Of a DNA stretch of 64,000 bases, positions 21,598 to 38,917 are shown piece after piece; position 1 is the stretch's first letter; the number at the start of each line of letters is the position of its first letter. A model generated the notes under the pieces. The model saw only the letters and a list, made by a program, of their open reading frames with translations, made no database searches and had not been told where the DNA came from. The position numbers and the translations under genes were made by a program. The stretch is from Salinigranum marinum (GTDB lineage Archaea; Halobacteriota; Halobacteria; Halobacteriales; Haloferacaceae): the NCBI RefSeq assembly GCF_024228675.1, contig NZ_CP100461.1, forward strand, positions 62,001-126,000. Reading direction: 5' to 3'.

Positions 21598-23550
21598 ATG
21601 GACCGGCCGGCGTCGTCGAAGTCACGGCCGGGCCTCTTGACCACCGACCGAGCCCAACTGACCGACCGGCTTCTCGGTCCGCGCACACGAGACGTCCTCA
21701 TGCTCCCTGATCCGATGCGAACACACAATACAGACACAGACGATACGGCCTCGCTCGACTCGTTCTCACGACACGCCGTCGACGGACCACTCACGAGGGC
21801 GAAATTAACACTGTGTACGATATCGAACCTCCGCCGCCAACAGCTGCTCGGCGTTATCGAACGGAAGGCAAGACACGCGGTCGTCCCGCGGCTGCCGGTC
21901 GACTTCGACCAGTGGTACACGCGGCGAGTTCCCGATCCCCTGCGGGTGTCGCTCAGTCCACTACAGGCGGCCACCGACGCGCTCAGCCGGTGTCTCCTGC
22001 CTCGAACGAAACAGTCGCACCGGTCGGATCTCAACGCGTTCGATGAGGGGACGTTGGCGTTCATCGGCGAAACGGTGGAACTCGACGCCGACCGAACGAT
22101 CGAGTGGGAGAACAGCCAGCTCTCCGATGTTCCGCTGCTTTGGTGGCTGAAGTTCCAATCGCTCGAAGTGCTGGACTGGTTCTTGTTCGGCGAGGGAGCC
22201 CCGGCTCGGAGCGCGGAGTTCGTTTCGGAGGTACTCGATCCGTGGCTGCGAACGATGGTGTCGAGAACGACCATCGGGTCGTCCGAATACCTCCGACGTG
22301 ACTGGATCCCGCACGCGGTTTCCCTGCGGATCATGCGACTCTGTCGGTACTGTGCGTGGCTCGCCGCCAACGACATGCTGGCCACTCGCGGGTTTATTTT
22401 AGCGTTCACGTACAAGAACGCGCTCTTCCTTCGAAACCACATCGAACACGACGTCGGGGGCAATCACCTCGTAGAGAACGCAGTCGCGCTACTTATGGCT
22501 GGGCTCGTTTTCGACGATTCAGCCGAGTGGGTGGAGACCGGAGAGCAGTTACTCGTCGAATCCGCGGAGACGCAGTTCCTCGCTGACGGTGGTCATTTCG
22601 AGCGGAGCCCCATGTACCACGTCATGGTTCTCACGAGGTACCTGACGGCAGTTGATCTGCTGGATGGGTACGAACGACCAGTTCCCACACGACTTCGAAC
22701 GACGGCTCGGGAGGCCACTGTGTTTCTCAGAGACCTCACACCGCCCGATGGACGGATTCCGCTGTTGAACGACTCCGTCTTCGACGAAATGCTGGCCATC
22801 CCCGAGGTGCTCGATTATGCGGACTTCTTGGGGATCCAGAGTGACGACAGTGGCTCCGAACTCGGTGCATCAGGGTACTACTGGCTCGGGGAAGGCGCTG
22901 ATCGAATGCTCGTCGACGGAGGGGCGGTCGGACCCCCACACCTTCCCGGCCACTCCCACGTAGACCTCTTGAGCGTCATGTTGTGGCTCGACGGTCAGCG
23001 GGTGCTCACCGATACCGGCGTTTACCAGTACGTGGCTGACAGACGACGGGTGTACGCGAGAAGCGTTCAGGCACACAACTCCGTTCGAGTCGGCAACTCG
23101 GGGCCGATCGAGGTCGGCGGCCAGTATCTCATGGGTTCCCGTGTCGACCCCGAGGTCGTCTCGTATCGCAACGATGACAACGGGGAGTTCGTCGGACGCT
23201 ACCGAACGAAGCGTCTCTTTTCACCTGGATACCAACATACGCGCAGCATCACCACTGATCGACACACCTGGGCTGTGACGGACTCCATCTCGGGAGAGCC
23301 AAATCAACCGATCACGTCACGCCTCCATTTTCACCCGGATACGACCGTCGAACCGCAGGGTGAGAACGACTTCAGTATCCTCCGTCAGTCCGGGTCGCTA
23401 CTGGGACACCTCACCGTCGACACGCATATTGAGGCGGAGCTGCTCCGCACGCCGTACTTCCCTCGATTTGGTGAACAGCGTGGACGAGACACGGTCGAAC
23501 TCGGGTACCGAGTCGGGAGAAACGGGTTCTCAATCTCGCTCCCGGAGTGA
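21598..23550 (+). CDS. Heparinase II/III-family polysaccharide lyase-like protein
   Basis: A 650-residue protein. The N-terminal part contains LTLCTISNLRRQQLLGVIER, seen in heparinase II/III N-terminal helical domains. Mid-protein NHLVENAVALLMAGLVF, FERSPMYHVMVL and PHLPGHSHVDLLSVMLWL carry the His/Tyr residues expected of the lyase active site, and the C-terminal beta domain follows (about 440-650). No signal peptide is seen at any candidate start; the first 40 residues are low quality and the true start may be ATG 21703 or 21715. In polysaccharide loci such proteins trim or degrade uronate-containing chains. The 21259-21597 gap upstream has no gene. Confidence 0.82.
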   Translation: MDRPASSKSRPGLLTTDRAQLTDRLLGPRTRDVLMLPDPMRTHNTDTDDTASLDSFSRHAVDGPLTRAKLTLCTISNLRRQQLLGVIERKARHAVVPRLPVDFDQWYTRRVPDPLRVSLSPLQAATDALSRCLLPRTKQSHRSDLNAFDEGTLAFIGETVELDADRTIEWENSQLSDVPLLWWLKFQSLEVLDWFLFGEGAPARSAEFVSEVLDPWLRTMVSRTTIGSSEYLRRDWIPHAVSLRIMRLCRYCAWLAANDMLATRGFILAFTYKNALFLRNHIEHDVGGNHLVENAVALLMAGLVFDDSAEWVETGEQLLVESAETQFLADGGHFERSPMYHVMVLTRYLTAVDLLDGYERPVPTRLRTTAREATVFLRDLTPPDGRIPLLNDSVFDEMLAIPEVLDYADFLGIQSDDSGSELGASGYYWLGEGADRMLVDGGAVGPPHLPGHSHVDLLSVMLWLDGQRVLTDTGVYQYVADRRRVYARSVQAHNSVRVGNSGPIEVGGQYLMGSRVDPEVVSYRNDDNGEFVGRYRTKRLFSPGYQHTRSITTDRHTWAVTDSISGEPNQPITSRLHFHPDTTVEPQGENDFSILRQSGSLLGHLTVDTHIEAELLRTPYFPRFGEQRGRDTVELGYRVGRNGFSISLPE

Positions 23551-24618: not shown

Positions 24619-27600
24619 TTAGAGCGTCTTGGTTTCGGTTTCGATCCGGTTGCTCGTGTCGTTGACAAGCAGACGGATCTCGTCGACGCCGCCGCGGACT
24701 CGGTGTGAGTGGGTGCCGCTGGCACGGCCATCGGAGACCTCTGTCGTCTCTGCAGAGACGGCCGCGCCGCCGGCCAGAAGCAGGGTGACGACCTGGTCGA
24801 GGTCCCCACCCGCGTCGGCTACGGTCCAGTCAACATCGTACCGGTTCCAGCTCGGGTTCCCTCTGTCAGTCACGGCGAACTGTTCGATGGTGGGATCATT
24901 TGCCGTGATCACACTCACGGTGCTGTTCGCCGTGTTGCCTGCACTGTCTGTCACGCGGGCCTCGAGACTGTGCGCACCGTCAGCGACCGTGGTCGAGTCC
25001 CAGGTGGCCTGATAGTAGCCGGAGCTCGAACTGTACTCCGTCGCCGTCCAATCGCCGCCGTCCACGCGGTAATCGACGGCGAGAGAGCCGGCGGCGTCTT
25101 CGCGGTCACTCGCATCGAGTCGGAGCGCGACGGTCTCGCTCACCTTCGTATCAGCGCTGGGTGTCTCCCACGAGAGGCTGGGCGCAGTGTCGCGGTCGGC
25201 GAACGGCGCGGACCTGCCATCGGTCGCAACGCTGAAATAGTCCCACTGTTGTGTGTCGGTCGACCAACCACCAACGCCGACCCATCCGGCGTCCGGGATG
25301 CTCGTGTCTTTCACTTCGAGGTTCCACTCAGTCGGCTCGTCGTCACTGTAGGGCCAGTAACGAGCTCGAATTCGGTCTCCCTCGACGTTGAACCGAACGA
25401 ACAACCACTCGTCGAGAGGGCTGTCGATGTTTTCAGCTGCGAGGAGTTCGGATCCTCCGCTGTCGTACTTTGCGACCTCGAACGTGAACGGATCACGGAA
25501 CGTCGTGAAATAGGCCGTCTCGTTGCCGCTCGTTCCCGTCCCGCGGCCGTACAACCGACACCATGAGGACGACGAATCGTCGTTTCTCGGGACCCGGACT
25601 AGTCCGAGGACGTCGACGTCTTTCGCCGTTCCGACGCTGTTCCACGACAGCCCGTGGCGCCCTGCAGATTCGGCTGCGAGTTCCAGAACCGCATCGTCGT
25701 CGTTGGACGACATCGCGGTTGCCGACCAGTCGGTCTGGCTCGACGCCCACTGAGGCGTCCACGCGTCGAAGATCGACGGCACGGTGTTACCCGGTCCGCT
25801 GACGTCCGATATCGGAACGTCCGGTGATGCGCCGCCGACACCGACACCGAGATAATCGAACTGCTGGCTGTCCGACGGGAAGCCACCGACGCCGACCCAT
25901 CCGCCAGCCGCGATGTCGGAATCCGTCGTCTGTATGTGCCAGTCGTCGGGCTCAGAGTCGCCGTACCTCCAGTGTTTCAATCCGACGGTCTCCTCCTCCA
26001 CCCGAAACCTCGTCCAGTACCACGTGTCGGGCTCGGGAATGCTAGATGTCTCGACAGTGGTCGAAGAGCCGTCTTGGTACTGATGAACGGCAAACCCACT
26101 GTCATCGTTTAATGCGGCGAAGTACGCGGTTTCCTCGTCCGTCCCGCGCACGTACGACCGACACCAGTCGGAGAGATCGTCGGAGTTAGTCGGGACACGG
26201 ACCAGTGCCAGTACCTCCACATCCGTGGCTTCTCCAACGTCATCCCACGAGAGGGCGTGTCGTCCCGCCGAACTCGGTGCCAACTCCAAGACCCTACCGC
26301 CGAAGTTCGACTCCGCCGAAGAGAGTATCCAGTCGTCGGCACTGCTCGCCCACTTCGGCGTGAAACTGTCGAGAGAGGTGTCCGCGAAATCCGTAGTGAA
26401 TACCGCTGGCTCGCGGCCGGAAGACGGTTCCGTAGCTTCGGGGGAGTCACTACCGACCTCACTCCGACTCGGGACGACCGGCTCGTACGGGTCGGCACCG
26501 ACCTCTTGGGTCTGGACGGAGATACCACCCGTGTCACCGAGGTCGCCGCTGTTGTCATCTCGGCGAAGCGTTCCGATACTCCCGTCGGAATCAGGAGTTG
26601 CAAACACGTCCCCGTCCGTCCCGTGGACGGAGAGCCGATCGATGTCAACGGATTTCATGGCGGTCGTTTCGTCCTGCACTGCGGCGGCGTCTCTCAGGCG
26701 ACAGGCGTTGTGTATCGCGATGAGATCGCCCTTCACCGAGACGGGGGTGTCGCGGAACTTGATGGCGGTAAAATCGTAATCGTGTCCTTCGACGTTGTTC
26801 AGGGTTACTGTCGGCTCGACGTCACCCCGCTCGGTGATCCGGTTGATGAGGTGCCGGCCGTGGAATGGGTCGCCGTTCGAGTCGGTCAACCCGTCGCCTC
26901 CGACGTTCTCCTCGAGGAACTCCGTTTTCGCCTTGTGATAGACGTTCGTGATATCGAGCTCGCCGCCGGCGGAGAGTTTGACCAACCCGGTGCCGGTTCC
27001 TTCGGCGTAACAGTTCGCTAGTTTCGCGGTCCCGTCATTGTATCGCCAATTGAACGCGAAACTCGCGATGTTCAGGAACTCACAGTCCTTCGCGATGATC
27101 GTTTTGCCGCTCGGGCAGTGGGTTTCGATGGCGTGTCCGGAGGCCCCGTCTTTACGTGACTGAATACCACACTCACGAAAGGTACAGCGATCGAACGTGC
27201 ACTCTTCTTCGCGGAGTCGAGTCGCCGACGAGTACCACTCGCTCCAGAGGACGTTCGTGAACGTCCACGTACCCCCCGTGATGTCGTCCGACTGGAGATC
27301 AATCGCTCGACTCGACCGTCCCGCATCCACGAGATTACCGAGTTGGTAGGCGTTCCCGTGTAGTTCGATGTCGCTTATTCTCACGGACCCATGCCCGGCC
27401 CCACCGTCGCGGTCGTAGAACATCAGGGTGTGGGACTGGCTATCCGGCATATGTTCGGTGAGCGCCAGTCGCGACTTCGTCGGACCTGCGCCAGCGATCG
27501 AAATCCCGCGCGGCTCTCGCGGCCCAAACAGGAGTAACTCGTATCCGTCTGTTCCTACATAAAACTCTCCTTCTGGGACGTACACTACCCCCCCGGTGCC

Positions 27601-27717
27601 AGCAGCGTTGGCCGCGTCACGAACTGCCATGAGGTTCCGTTCCGCCGTGGCGAGATCCGGATCCTCCGGATTCGGTTCCGCACCGTAGTCGGTGATCCGT
27701 TCGATACTTAACGTCAT
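24619..27717 (-). CDS. Large parallel beta-helix (pectate-lyase-like) protein with two lectin-like modules
   Basis: A 1032-residue protein from ATG 27717. Residues about 1-430 form a right-handed beta-helix of the pectate-lyase superfamily: SIERITDYGAEPNPEDPD, GGVVYVPEGEFYVG, GASGHAIETH, FNWRYNDG. Two homologous modules of about 190 residues follow (each with KWASS/QWASS...W, AGRH.LSW, WVGVGG, Q..DY), concanavalin-like in look. A YRVDGGDW..TEY Ig-like domain and a final beta domain end it. The paralogue at 30839-32284 has its Tat signal fused; here the signal lies in another frame just upstream (27714-27887), overlapping this start by ATGA. As written, the main chain has no export signal. Confidence 0.82.
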   Translation of the reverse strand: MTLSIERITDYGAEPNPEDPDLATAERNLMAVRDAANAAGTGGVVYVPEGEFYVGTDGYELLLFGPREPRGISIAGAGPTKSRLALTEHMPDSQSHTLMFYDRDGGAGHGSVRISDIELHGNAYQLGNLVDAGRSSRAIDLQSDDITGGTWTFTNVLWSEWYSSATRLREEECTFDRCTFRECGIQSRKDGASGHAIETHCPSGKTIIAKDCEFLNIASFAFNWRYNDGTAKLANCYAEGTGTGLVKLSAGGELDITNVYHKAKTEFLEENVGGDGLTDSNGDPFHGRHLINRITERGDVEPTVTLNNVEGHDYDFTAIKFRDTPVSVKGDLIAIHNACRLRDAAAVQDETTAMKSVDIDRLSVHGTDGDVFATPDSDGSIGTLRRDDNSGDLGDTGGISVQTQEVGADPYEPVVPSRSEVGSDSPEATEPSSGREPAVFTTDFADTSLDSFTPKWASSADDWILSSAESNFGGRVLELAPSSAGRHALSWDDVGEATDVEVLALVRVPTNSDDLSDWCRSYVRGTDEETAYFAALNDDSGFAVHQYQDGSSTTVETSSIPEPDTWYWTRFRVEEETVGLKHWRYGDSEPDDWHIQTTDSDIAAGGWVGVGGFPSDSQQFDYLGVGVGGASPDVPISDVSGPGNTVPSIFDAWTPQWASSQTDWSATAMSSNDDDAVLELAAESAGRHGLSWNSVGTAKDVDVLGLVRVPRNDDSSSSWCRLYGRGTGTSGNETAYFTTFRDPFTFEVAKYDSGGSELLAAENIDSPLDEWLFVRFNVEGDRIRARYWPYSDDEPTEWNLEVKDTSIPDAGWVGVGGWSTDTQQWDYFSVATDGRSAPFADRDTAPSLSWETPSADTKVSETVALRLDASDREDAAGSLAVDYRVDGGDWTATEYSSSSGYYQATWDSTTVADGAHSLEARVTDSAGNTANSTVSVITANDPTIEQFAVTDRGNPSWNRYDVDWTVADAGGDLDQVVTLLLAGGAAVSAETTEVSDGRASGTHSHRVRGGVDEIRLLVNDTSNRIETETKTL

Positions 27718-27887
27718 TGAACCCACTCGGAGAAGTCCGTCGTGTGGATGCTGCCGCCGCTGTCGCTCCCGGCTGCGACGCCGGCCATGCCGGTTCCCAG
27801 CGTCGCCACAGCGACCGAACTCAATTTGACAAATTCACGTCTATTTACTGACTGTTTTTTCGCTCTCTCGCTATTCTCGTCCGGCAT
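27714..27887 (-). CDS. Tat signal-peptide ORF, out of frame with the beta-helix gene
   Basis: A 57-residue frame encodes a charged N-terminus, the twin-arginine motif NRREFVKLSS, a hydrophobic core (VAVATLGTGMAGVAA) and a Ser/Gly tail ending FSEWVQ. Its TGA (27716-27714) overlaps the next ATG (27717-27715). ACTTTAAG (27912-27919) is centred 28 nt before this ATG, so the transcript should start here rather than at the main ORF. By comparison with the paralogue it is almost surely the original signal peptide, split off by a one-base (or equivalent) frameshift. Termination-reinitiation could still give a cytoplasmic product. Confidence 0.75.
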   Translation of the reverse strand: MPDENSERAKKQSVNRREFVKLSSVAVATLGTGMAGVAAGSDSGGSIHTTDFSEWVQ

Positions 27888-27911: not shown

Positions 27912-27919
27912 CTTAAAGT
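27912..27919 (-). promoter_or_regulatory. Putative TATA box placing the beta-helix transcript start at the Tat ORF
   Basis: ACTTTAAG on the minus strand is centred about 28 nt before ATG 27887. The 27888-28297 gap is otherwise AT-rich divergent promoter space with no gene. Confidence 0.55.
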
Positions 27920-30838: not shown

Positions 30839-32284
30839 TCAACTGTCGAATGAGCAGCCGACCTCATCTCGCGAGACGACCGCTGGACGGAACGCCTCAG
30901 CGTCCACGTTGTCCGTCTCGATTTCGACATCTCCGACTGTTCCGAGTCCGGCATTACCACGGCGGTTGAGCGTCTCGATCGCCCCATTCGAGTTCGGTAC
31001 CTCGAACACGTCTCCCCTCGCGTCGTGAACTGAAAGGCGCTTGATATCGATGTTCCGTATCGCGCTACCCGTCCAGGCGTAGTCCCGGAACACCGCGTTG
31101 TCACCCTCCTCCTCGTTGTACGGACCCGACGCTCGATGCAGTGCGATCATGTCCCCATGTAGTTCGATCGGTGCTTGCCGTATCTTGAACGCTTCGTGCG
31201 TGCAGTCGTGGAACTCGACGTTCTCTAGCACCACCGTCGGGACTCGCTCCCCTCGTTCGAACAGCTTGTTTATGAAATGCCGTCCGTGGAACGGAACTTC
31301 GCCATCCGGGGTCGAGATATGCTCTGTAAGCCACTCGGTGTGTGCCTCCAAGTACGAATTTCGGATCTCGAGGCGGTTCCCGGTGGAGAGTTTGACGATC
31401 CCCGTCCCGGTTCCGCTGACGTGGCAGTCCTCCATGACGATCGCGCCGTCGTTGTACCGCCAATTCACGGCGAAACTCCCGATGCGTCTGAAAGAACAGC
31501 GTCTGATGGTAAGCTCGTCACCGTACTTGACGTACGTCTCCACGGCGTGGCCTGACCCTCCGTGATCCTTTCCCCCGATCCCGATCTCCTCGAACGTGCA
31601 GCGATCGATCGACGCGTTGAATTCCCGCAGTCGGAGTGCGGTAGTGTATATACCACGAAAGAACACGTTGTTGAAGCTGATGCTTCCGGTTCCGTTCATC
31701 TCGAACGCTCGGCTTGCCCGCTCGGCCTCGATCAGGTTGCCGAGGTTCTCGTAGTTCCCGTCGATGGCGATGTCCCGTATCTCTATCTCACCGTGTGAGA
31801 CGTTTCTGTACTTGAACAGGACGTGGGACTCGTCTCCGTTGTCGAGATGTTCGGTGAGCGCTAACGTGGACTTACTTGGGCCATCGCCGACTATCGAGAT
31901 ACCGGCGGGCTCGTTCTCGCCGAATCCTACGTTGCTCGTTCGATCTTCCTGACCGAAAAAATAGGTTCCCGGAGGAACGTAGATCGTTCCGCCCTCCCCA
32001 GCGGCGGTGGCGGCTGCTCGAAGCGCCTTCGTGTTCCGTACCGCTGATTCTAGGTTGGGATCTTCCGGGTTCGGTTCCGCACCGTAGTCTTTGATGTTCT
32101 CGGCCCCCGTGGGGGGCGCTTCGGTAGTCGATGTTTCGGTCTCTTCCGGTGTCTCGGTGGGGTCAGACGGCTGGCCACGGGCGGGTGGTGACTGCCCCAG
32201 TAGCCGGTAACCGACACCCATAACTAGTGCAGTCGCTGTACCGCCCGCGATCAGAAGTCTCCGCCGACTGAACTTCCCACCCAT
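30839..32284 (-). CDS. Tat-exported parallel beta-helix (pectate-lyase-like) protein
   Basis: A 481-residue protein from ATG 32284. MGGKFSRRRLLIAGGTATAL is a Tat signal, followed by a Thr/Glu/Pro linker (residues about 45-65) and then a right-handed beta-helix: NIKDYGAEPNPEDPNL, GGTIYVPPGTYFFG, GGSGHAVETY, FAVNWRYNDGAIV, PFHGRHFINKL. It aligns along its whole catalytic-fold part with the larger beta-helix protein of the locus but lacks the C-terminal lectin-like modules. There is no lipobox, so it may stay anchored by an uncleaved helix or be released. The role is probably cleavage or epimerisation of the locus polysaccharide; no catalytic triad is assigned. Confidence 0.83.
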   Translation of the reverse strand: MGGKFSRRRLLIAGGTATALVMGVGYRLLGQSPPARGQPSDPTETPEETETSTTEAPPTGAENIKDYGAEPNPEDPNLESAVRNTKALRAAATAAGEGGTIYVPPGTYFFGQEDRTSNVGFGENEPAGISIVGDGPSKSTLALTEHLDNGDESHVLFKYRNVSHGEIEIRDIAIDGNYENLGNLIEAERASRAFEMNGTGSISFNNVFFRGIYTTALRLREFNASIDRCTFEEIGIGGKDHGGSGHAVETYVKYGDELTIRRCSFRRIGSFAVNWRYNDGAIVMEDCHVSGTGTGIVKLSTGNRLEIRNSYLEAHTEWLTEHISTPDGEVPFHGRHFINKLFERGERVPTVVLENVEFHDCTHEAFKIRQAPIELHGDMIALHRASGPYNEEEGDNAVFRDYAWTGSAIRNIDIKRLSVHDARGDVFEVPNSNGAIETLNRRGNAGLGTVGDVEIETDNVDAEAFRPAVVSRDEVGCSFDS

Positions 32285-32680
32285 TGGTGTACGTCTCGTG
32301 TAATTCACTCGATAATGTTAAGATACCGGTGTCGATCCCCAAGAGGTGTACATCGGGCCCGTTAACTACCCGCCATGAACGCTTGCGGCCACGTCAGACT
32401 CCCTTCGATCGGATCGACCAGATTACACGGATAGTGCCGTCGATCAGCGGGCTCGCCGTCCCATCCCGGGTACCAACTCTCCTTTCGATGGAACCAAGCG
32501 ACGGCCTTCATACCGCTGAGCACTCATTAGGAGGGGCCAGATCAGGTCCTATCCGGCTTTTTTAATGTCCCGTTCCGGGTGGTTTTGATAGTCCAACGTA
32601 TTATCAGAGTCACGTCTCTCACACGGGTGACCTCGGTGCCTCGCGACCTATGGCTCGTCTCGAAGTTCGATCATTCGGGA

Positions 32681-36663: not shown

Positions 36664-38451
36664 TTACACACCACCTGACGCCACCGTGGTGTTTTCGCCC
36701 GTCCTCACGAGATATTGGTCGTAGTCGCCACTGTCATACACTCGGTCGACTGTCGTGTCTTTCTCCAGTCGCTCGAAGTTTTCTGGAGTGTACCGCCAAT
36801 TTGCCCTGTAATCAGGGTGTACTGTTGGATAGAACTCCCGTCCCAATCGAGTTATCGTCAAGTATCGTTCGTTTTGAAAGTTATCGCCAAGATACTCTGA
36901 CTCGGTATAATTGAAACGTGGTGGTGGCGATACGCCGTTGAACGGTTTTGTCGTATTCCGCCCGTATTGGGCGTCGTAGAAACGGAAGTACAGTATGTCG
37001 AACTGCATGAGTTCCTGTGAACTGTCCCCGTATACGGTTAGCCACTCGGTCCCTTCTACCTCCATCTCGGTCACCTGCTGGTTTTTTGTCGACGATTGCG
37101 GTGCCGGAAACAGACTAAACGTGGCAAGCGAAACGACTAGAAGCAACACTACGATCAGTGATAGACCATACCCGGTACCGGCGGGACGGGAAATGCTCCA
37201 ATCAGTGTGACGCCATACGAGATAGAACAGTTGACCTGTGAGGATAGCGCCGCCGATCTTGGCGATTTTGAATGGTCGATCGTGGGTAACCTCGAGATCT
37301 ATCAAGAGAAACGCGAGCCCACCAAAGCTGAACACCGCGAGCGTCCCGATGAACATGAGCGTGTAGGTGTCGAGTGCGTACTCCCTACGGTATGAGAGCC
37401 ATAATGCGACACCGACGAATACGAACCCCAACCCGAACAGGACGAGTTCGATCCCGTACTGGAACGTGATCACGGCGAGTATGTCTACCAACGCTGGCGA
37501 TGTCTCGTTGATCGTTTCGGTGTACGCCCCGATTGGCGCGCTCCCATCCGAAACCCCAAACACTCTATTATATACCCTGTTGAATCGCAGTATCACGCCA
37601 ACGAAGTTCGAGTACCACGCGATCATCACTGCGGCGGCCAAAGAAAAAAAGTTCGTCGGGGTAGCGTACCGATCCGTGATTTGGGGTGCGTATCGACCAA
37701 GCAGGTACACCGCCATAATTCCGATCGCGAACAGGGCCGTCAACGGATGATATAGAATAAATGCCGCCAAGGTGACGACAAAAACCGCGCGGACTGGTGG
37801 GGTGGCATGACGCTGACTTTTAATGAACAGGTAGAGTGTCAACGGCACGAGTGCGACACCGACGTCGAACGGCCGGAGCCCGAGGCTAGCATGCACGGGA
37901 AGGATAACAAACGGGAGCCCGAAGAGGATCTGACTCCGTTCGTCGAACAGAGAGATAAGAAGATACGACATCGATACGAAATATACACTCCAAAAAACGA
38001 CTGGGAGTAACAGAACAATGGTCGTTACTTCCGCGCTGGTCGCGTCCGCCACGACCATACTCAGGAGATGTGTCGGGGGGTAGATATTATCTTCGACGAC
38101 GCCAGTGTTAACGATATCTAGAATAAATCCGACATGGGTCATTGAATCGGTTCGCCCATACATCTCGTATCCGCGCAGATACGGCAGCAACAGAAGCAGG
38201 AGATTCGACAGCAGCACCGCGGAGAGGCCGAACATCCACGCACGATCACCCGACGTTCGGACGCTGCCAAGAATCGCAAGGCACCCGGCAAACTGGGCTC
38301 CAATAATGGCGACCCAGAAGACGGCAGGGTACGCGCTGTAGAGAGAGATCTCGTACTGTCCGGCGGCCGGCATCGTGGTCGCGATGCCGATTCCCACAAG
38401 CAACAGTGTGAACGCGCACAGTGCGAGGGTTCGCGATGTCTTGGTGTACAT
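36664..38451 (-). CDS. Large polytopic membrane protein of the glycan locus (GT-C-like, unassigned)
   Basis: A 595-residue protein with about thirteen hydrophobic helices and a polar C-terminal domain of roughly 140 residues. The first large loop has YGRTDSMTHVGFILDIVNTG followed by NIYPPTHLLS, with acidic and His residues after the early helices as in GT-C glycosyltransferases and O-antigen polymerases. The C-terminal EGTEWLTVYGDSSQELMQFD resembles the outer domains of haloarchaeal proteins of this type. It could polymerise or transfer a lipid-linked sugar. ATG 38451 has CATACTATC about 24 nt upstream; ATG 38463 is possible. The 36437-36663 gap is empty. Confidence 0.65.
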   Translation of the reverse strand: MYTKTSRTLALCAFTLLLVGIGIATTMPAAGQYEISLYSAYPAVFWVAIIGAQFAGCLAILGSVRTSGDRAWMFGLSAVLLSNLLLLLLPYLRGYEMYGRTDSMTHVGFILDIVNTGVVEDNIYPPTHLLSMVVADATSAEVTTIVLLLPVVFWSVYFVSMSYLLISLFDERSQILFGLPFVILPVHASLGLRPFDVGVALVPLTLYLFIKSQRHATPPVRAVFVVTLAAFILYHPLTALFAIGIMAVYLLGRYAPQITDRYATPTNFFSLAAAVMIAWYSNFVGVILRFNRVYNRVFGVSDGSAPIGAYTETINETSPALVDILAVITFQYGIELVLFGLGFVFVGVALWLSYRREYALDTYTLMFIGTLAVFSFGGLAFLLIDLEVTHDRPFKIAKIGGAILTGQLFYLVWRHTDWSISRPAGTGYGLSLIVVLLLVVSLATFSLFPAPQSSTKNQQVTEMEVEGTEWLTVYGDSSQELMQFDILYFRFYDAQYGRNTTKPFNGVSPPPRFNYTESEYLGDNFQNERYLTITRLGREFYPTVHPDYRANWRYTPENFERLEKDTTVDRVYDSGDYDQYLVRTGENTTVASGGV

Positions 38452-38917
38452 GCCGTCCAACATTTTTACTGATAGTATGCTAGGTATGCTCTCACCGGTG
38501 ACGCGCCACTGTCGATTGTTCTCCCTTGGAACTCCGCTTGGACAGATGATGACGGCTCTGTCCCGGGTTCTCGATCACTGGAAGCTTTTGATAGCGGTAT
38601 ACCTCACATCTAAGGGAGTATCAAAATAAGTTTTGTTAATTACTCTTCTGCGACTTATCGCCTCGCTGGATGGCCGTACAACGAGGATGTGGCGACGCCG
38701 CATCCGGATGGGTTGATCGAGTACCGGAGTATCCCGTCGATTAAACTGACCGGAATGACCCCACCTCGACGCGTCCAAAATGTCATTGAGTCATCCGTTG
38801 GTTTCTGTGCGCACCTGCGCGTCGTTCTTCCGCATGATAATTATGTGTCGAGTGGCTGTACGATTCGACTAACACCTCAATTAATGAGTCCGCAGTTCGT
38901 ACCGGAAGCCAAGAATA

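Follow-up and report, generated by a model that had tools for sequence, protein, structure and literature searches.

A conserved carrier of a twin-arginine (Tat) signal is encoded immediately upstream of a signal-less beta-helix enzyme in the 64,000-nt stretch of Salinigranum marinum DNA analysed here (the window), and it is almost certainly a separate protein in its own right. In our best reading, which we consider probable, this carrier docks to the folded enzyme by donating a beta-strand, and the two proteins are co-exported via the Tat pathway. The initial annotation had described a 57-codon Tat open reading frame (ORF) whose TGA overlaps the ATG of a 1032-residue beta-helix protein, and both the sequence and a match to the NCBIfam model TIGR01409 bear this description out. 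The features of the locus are listed in Table 1.

The carrier product, MPDENSERAKKQSVNRREFVKLSSVAVATLGTGMAGVAAGSDSGGSIHTTDFSEWVQ (translation of minus-strand 27887-27714 up to the stop codon), consists of the signal NRREFVKLSS, a hydrophobic stretch, the residues GVAA and the short tail GSDSGGSIHTTDFSEWVQ. With a score of 22.0 bits against a cut-off of 16.7 bits, TIGR01409 identifies it as a genuine Tat signal. In an alignment with 18 homologues (19 carriers), the RR pair is invariant and the T, F and S of the tail are nearly invariant. In close pairs the dN/dS ratio of the carrier ORF ranges between 0.23 and 0.57, in line with purifying selection, and 20 further loci have the same arrangement, which hence lies far beyond chance. 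Carrier-type Tat ORFs were found in at least 27 haloarchaeal genomes. Relatives of the enzyme, searched for in 392 genomes of the order, were detected in one other family and in Haloarcula. Three-frame translation of their upstream regions revealed a small Tat ORF in another frame ending at the enzyme ATG, except in seven Haloarcula, and the split is therefore old. Including the window, 21 loci couple a Tat ORF to a signal-less enzyme.

Table 1 Features of the carrier–enzyme locus and of the paralogue in the window
Feature	Position	Strand	Remarks
Tat carrier ORF, 57 aa	27887-27714	minus	twin-arginine signal peptide and 17-20-residue tail, no other domain
Strand motif IHTTDFSE near carrier C-terminus	27726..27749	minus	corresponds to first beta-strand of contiguous ConA-like domains
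TATA-like element CTTTAAG	27912..27918	minus	31 nt before carrier ATG; consensus match only
ATGA stop-start overlap of carrier and enzyme genes	27714..27717	minus	4 nt shared by TGA and ATG
Signal-less enzyme ORF, 1032 aa	27717-24619	minus	
Right-handed beta-helix catalytic domain, residues 1-409	26491..27717	minus	AlgE4 A-module-like
ConA-like domain 1 with own first strand VFTTDFADTS	25786..26412	minus	match to L099 domain, E 1.1e-30; alignment
ConA-like domain 2 without first strand	25150..25764	minus	proposed carrier docking site; sequence comparison and model
Bacterial Ig-like domain Big_7, residues 846-920	24958..25182	minus	PF17957, E 1.7e-8
Paralogous beta-helix protein with fused Tat signal	30839..32308	minus	no ConA-like domain (control)

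The predicted structure of the catalytic domain (model residues 5..403) has the A-module fold, matching 2pyg_A with a Z-score of 34.8 and an rmsd of 2.2 over 339 aligned residues; a further structural match was 8ja4, from the alginate epimerase-lyases (Z 32.4). The window enzyme thus resembles the mannuronan C-5 epimerase AlgE4 A-module and the epimerase-lyases in fold, but differs from them in its low sequence identity (~15%), its archaeal origin and its ConA-like and Ig-like domains. Since the beta-helix begins at residue 4-5 of the ORF, nothing is missing at the enzyme N-terminus. The enzyme ORFs begin directly at the catalytic domain and provide no signal of their own, as is characteristic of the cargo in Tat hitchhiking. 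In the AlphaFold model of the full window enzyme, the beta-helix is well resolved and the ConA-like region only moderately. ConA-like domain 1, which is missing from the relatives of the window enzyme, is not resolved in this model, and no strand was modelled directly before residue 664 in ConA-like domain 2. A paralogue in which the Tat signal is fused to the same fold had been proposed as a counterpart; the fused signal is present, but the protein does not offer a like-for-like comparison because it has no ConA-like domain.

The catalytic domain varies among the large partners and comprises AlgE-like beta-helices, PF12708 beta-helices and a domain without Pfam match. Their common part is a ConA-like domain of the CBM66/LamG type, with the first beta-strand missing. 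A search with this domain retrieved different catalytic parts joined to the same strandless domain, and in each case a Tat ORF bearing the strand motif was again present. For one of these proteins, L178, the non-beta-helix catalytic domain yielded neither a Pfam match above threshold nor a PDB sequence match; it may resemble a glycoside hydrolase. The ConA-like domain had no match in a phage collection. Every partner ConA-like domain begins at (x)xWTPxW, with the first strand absent, and the carrier tails share [YFHL]xT[DN]FS, the small ORFs ending in the strand [YFH]xT[DN]FS[E/S], 2-4 residues before the stop codon. The same motif opens the contiguous ConA-like domain of four Haloarcula proteins (TYRTNFSTYETGAVPGDWTPEYAS), and in G363, G378, G387 and G301 the strand is located in the same chain (TYRTNFSTYETGxxPxDWTPEY); these homologues have no carrier.

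The strand motif is short (only about 8 residues). A position-specific scoring matrix built exclusively from contiguous first strands found its best match 2-4 residues from the stop, in the same register, in 24 of 24 carriers tested. In the window ORF the matrix peaks at IHTTDFSE, the best position in the whole ORF (shuffle p=0.001). In an AlphaFold2 model of a complete domain (L099; pLDDT 91, pTM 0.89), this segment forms a beta-strand, spanning residues 3-8, within a CBM66/galactocerebrosidase-lectin-like fold. The structural homologues are CBM66 and the galactocerebrosidase lectin-like domain (PDB: 4b1l and 5nxb, Z about 19), from which the split proteins differ by the lack of strand 1 in the chain: the strand set is complete in the homologue L099, whereas strand 1 is missing from the chain of domain 2 in the window. 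One exception to the motif was encountered, the coupled carrier of Haloarcula sebkhae (G241), which reads THATNSSVYSQ and has no Phe; the same organism also possesses a second carrier gene, which is intact, at a distance of about 5 kb. The proteins composed of a beta-helix and a complete ConA-like domain in four Haloarcula genomes (L099, L101, L102 and L109) are located directly behind a conserved gene that ends in VWANIRS/R, with no Tat signal, and are possibly tail-fibre-like.

Among class-level genomes, strandless ConA genes and strong carrier matches occurred in the same 23 of 23 genomes, and the carrier was found in none of the 348 others. Because these genomes share ancestry and the profile that retrieved the 23 co-occurring carriers already contained 16 of them, this co-occurrence represents an association and not a series of independent events. 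The carrier and the ConA gene were lost in concert in G083: this genome has no ConA gene, and its remaining carrier has no in-frame start and an altered motif.

The carrier and enzyme frames differ in the window, and the 4-nt overlap is present in 18 of the 21 coupled loci. As stated in the initial annotation, a TATA element precedes the signal ORF and none precedes the enzyme; by consensus match, it is CTTTAAG at a distance of 31 nt, the only promoter-like element at this junction. TTTA/TTAT-like elements are located 26-35 nt upstream of the carriers of most relatives. The positions of these elements would fit a carrier transcript with little or no leader, followed by termination-reinitiation at the enzyme gene. 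An overlap (ATGA or GTGA) combined with the lack of a separate promoter for the second gene is the arrangement of a translationally coupled pair. The S-E-G codons of several relatives double as GAGG, a Shine-Dalgarno (SD)-like motif situated 7 nt before the enzyme start; many relatives have a weak SD inside the small ORF, and no clear one was found in the window. In nine tested gene pairs of Haloferax, termination-reinitiation was strict (Haloferax study, PMC6728339). Haloarchaea do not use the SD for de novo initiation, and their SD-assisted reinitiation requires an upstream ORF (PMC6728339). Judged from the gene arrangement, the enzyme is probably translated by termination-reinitiation. The locus resembles the known haloarchaeal pairs (PMC6728339) in its ATGA overlap and, in many relatives, in the SD-like motif within the upstream gene, and differs from them in that the upstream gene is an export carrier of 57-84 codons. 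Termination-reinitiation had initially been suggested as a source of intracellular enzyme: as the route of enzyme translation the suggestion agrees with the ATGA overlap, the SD of the relatives and the promoter upstream of the carrier only, but its intracellular part is probably wrong, the small ORF resembling a separate export carrier. In three related loci (L032, L033 and L034), about 60 nt at the carrier–enzyme junction are identical, synonymous sites included, while the flanks vary; an extra constraint at the RNA level is possible.

Such coupling also leaves room for a simpler view, in which the carrier ORF is mainly a translated leader for reinitiation that retains its Tat signal and strand as evolutionary relics of a gene fission. 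The requirement of SD-assisted reinitiation for an upstream ORF (PMC6728339) would fit this view, as would the seven Haloarcula introduced above (G020, G274, G162, G157, G218, G177 and G233). They keep an open ORF of 85-89 codons (MLRxNYF...) before the enzyme, without a Tat signal and with dN/dS values mostly between 0.3 and 0.9, which always runs up to or into the enzyme ATG and has an SD (L036-L042). This ORF is probably a leader kept for reinitiation, and the lack of de novo SD use in haloarchaea (PMC6728339) would explain its retention despite a carrier gene elsewhere. These seven genomes had been regarded as exceptions without a carrier, an assignment that was dropped when the carrier profile, run against the genomes, located the carrier as a separate gene, ~0.4 kb before the other beta-helix paralogue and about 5-6 kb from the enzyme; its product ends in HMTDFSEYV. 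In the same genomes, therefore, the roles of leader and carrier are separated and both are kept, which, along with the conservation of RR and strand motif, speaks against a mere leader. We regard the leader view as unlikely for the main function of the carrier, although a leader function may be an additional role.

The reading we favour, strand donation and co-export, would proceed as follows; coupling, docking, co-export and cleavage are steps that we infer, while the conservation of the carrier as a separate protein, the match of its tail to the strand missing from the partner, the joint occurrence of the two genes and their loss in concert are observed. Transcription would begin just before the carrier, and ribosomes terminating on the carrier would reinitiate at the overlapping ATG, so that the two proteins are produced jointly. 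The enzyme would fold in the cytoplasm, and the carrier strand would fill the open edge of its incomplete ConA-like domain. The Tat translocase would then take out the folded pair by hitchhiking, and after cleavage of the signal the strand peptide would remain part of the secreted enzyme. Points against this reading are the small size of the strand motif, the loss of its Phe in the coupled carrier of H. sebkhae, and the extra ConA-like domain of the window protein, which has its own strand. Carrier and enzyme might also be co-exported with the tail binding another surface and no strand being filled in, since neither the co-occurrence nor the Tat signal depends on the mode of docking. This variant has about as little probability as the leader view, as the tail is precisely the segment that is absent from the partner and present in the contiguous homologues.

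A less probable alternative, to which we give little credence, is that the small ORF encodes an independent secreted peptide, with a signalling or structural role, and that the enzyme stays inside the cell. The predicted mature peptide of about 13-20 residues and the AxA-like site before many tails would suit a secreted peptide. Nonetheless, no carrier was found without a strandless ConA partner, the Ig-like domains of the partners are typical of exported proteins, and the partners sit in polysaccharide gene clusters.

Programmed ribosomal frameshifting, which would yield a Tat–enzyme fusion besides the two separate products and had been offered to account for both forms, is very improbable. 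The ATGA overlap does keep the two frames in a constant relation in 18 of the 21 coupled loci, but in G268 the carrier is in frame with the large gene with stop codons between them, and in G182 and G028 the two genes are separated by spacers containing mini-ORFs. A programmed -1 frameshift would combine a constant frame relation with a conserved slippery site, and neither is found: the D-F codons of the motif are GAT TTC, GAC TTC, GAC TTT or GAT TTT, and seven Haloarcula encode the carrier on its own, kilobases from the enzyme. At the window junction itself no classic slippery heptamer is in register, as the initial annotation had noted, the A6C run being phased AAA AAA C. A recent one-base frameshift mutation or sequencing error that parted the Tat signal from the enzyme, conceivable from the two adjacent frames and the long frame open upstream to 27837, is practically refuted by the retention of the split in 20 further loci among distant relatives and families, by the carrier dN/dS below 1, by a catalytic domain that is complete from the start of the enzyme ORF, and by the junction of a related locus in Haloarcula marismortui. 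There, on a plasmid of strain ATCC 43049, two independent assemblies are identical base for base over 300 nt, and the split is consequently not a sequencing artefact. The two assemblies (NC_006395.1 and NZ_CP039137.1) disagree at a single base within the enzyme gene, position 1849 of the former, and because of this difference the newer annotation splits the enzyme into two genes.

The locus is embedded in a polysaccharide cluster encoding glycosyltransferases, a UDP-glucose dehydrogenase, a heparinase II/III homologue and a flippase. Positions 14000-52000 of the window, which coincide with this cluster, have a GC content of 53-63% compared to 66-71% on both sides and probably represent an acquired island, as judged from base composition. 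The heparinase II/III-family protein (21598-23550) has no obvious N-terminal signal. A protein of ~600 residues with a hydrophobic N-terminal segment (36664-38463) recurs in related clusters (L032:8955-10790, L036:7443-9248 and L031:17506-19323), had no Pfam match where tested, and is a candidate polysaccharide polymerase.

Tat hitchhiker pairs are known from Streptomyces MelC1/MelC2 (PMC2758597) and from the subunits of Ni-Fe hydrogenase and formate dehydrogenase (PMC10924467). As in these pairs, one partner bears the Tat signal and the other none, and export as a complex is what we propose here. The nearest known kind is MelC1/MelC2, in which a small Tat carrier gene likewise lies just upstream of a signal-less enzyme gene; however, MelC1 is no strand tag but a helper protein required for copper incorporation (PMC2758597). 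While known hitchhiker carriers are folded subunits or metallochaperones, the mature carrier described here would comprise about 13-20 residues and a single strand, and one carrier type serves several unrelated enzymes. The completion of an incomplete beta fold by the strand of another chain is familiar from donor-strand complementation in chaperone-usher pili and from split-protein complementation. Those systems serve assembly or engineered reporters, whereas here strand donation would be a natural means of attaching an export signal. An incomplete literature search yielded no report of a stand-alone haloarchaeal Tat carrier or of a split domain for Tat export, which is weak evidence of novelty.

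Beyond the single locus, the balance tilts slightly towards a portable module, in which a Tat signal on a single strand docks into a strandless carbohydrate-binding domain common to the cargo and thereby exports many different folded enzymes in trans, also from a gene located elsewhere in the cluster. Such a module would constitute a natural detachable tag, with the signal peptide joined by the completion of a beta fold instead of a peptide bond. The tag would bind a cargo only once its acceptor domain had folded correctly, which would bring quality control into Tat export. As a tool, a carrier of about 70 residues might export any protein fused to the acceptor domain. Signal-peptide finders would probably assign such signal-less enzymes to the cell interior, and the module, if real, would explain how seemingly cytoplasmic polysaccharide enzymes of haloarchaea leave the cell.
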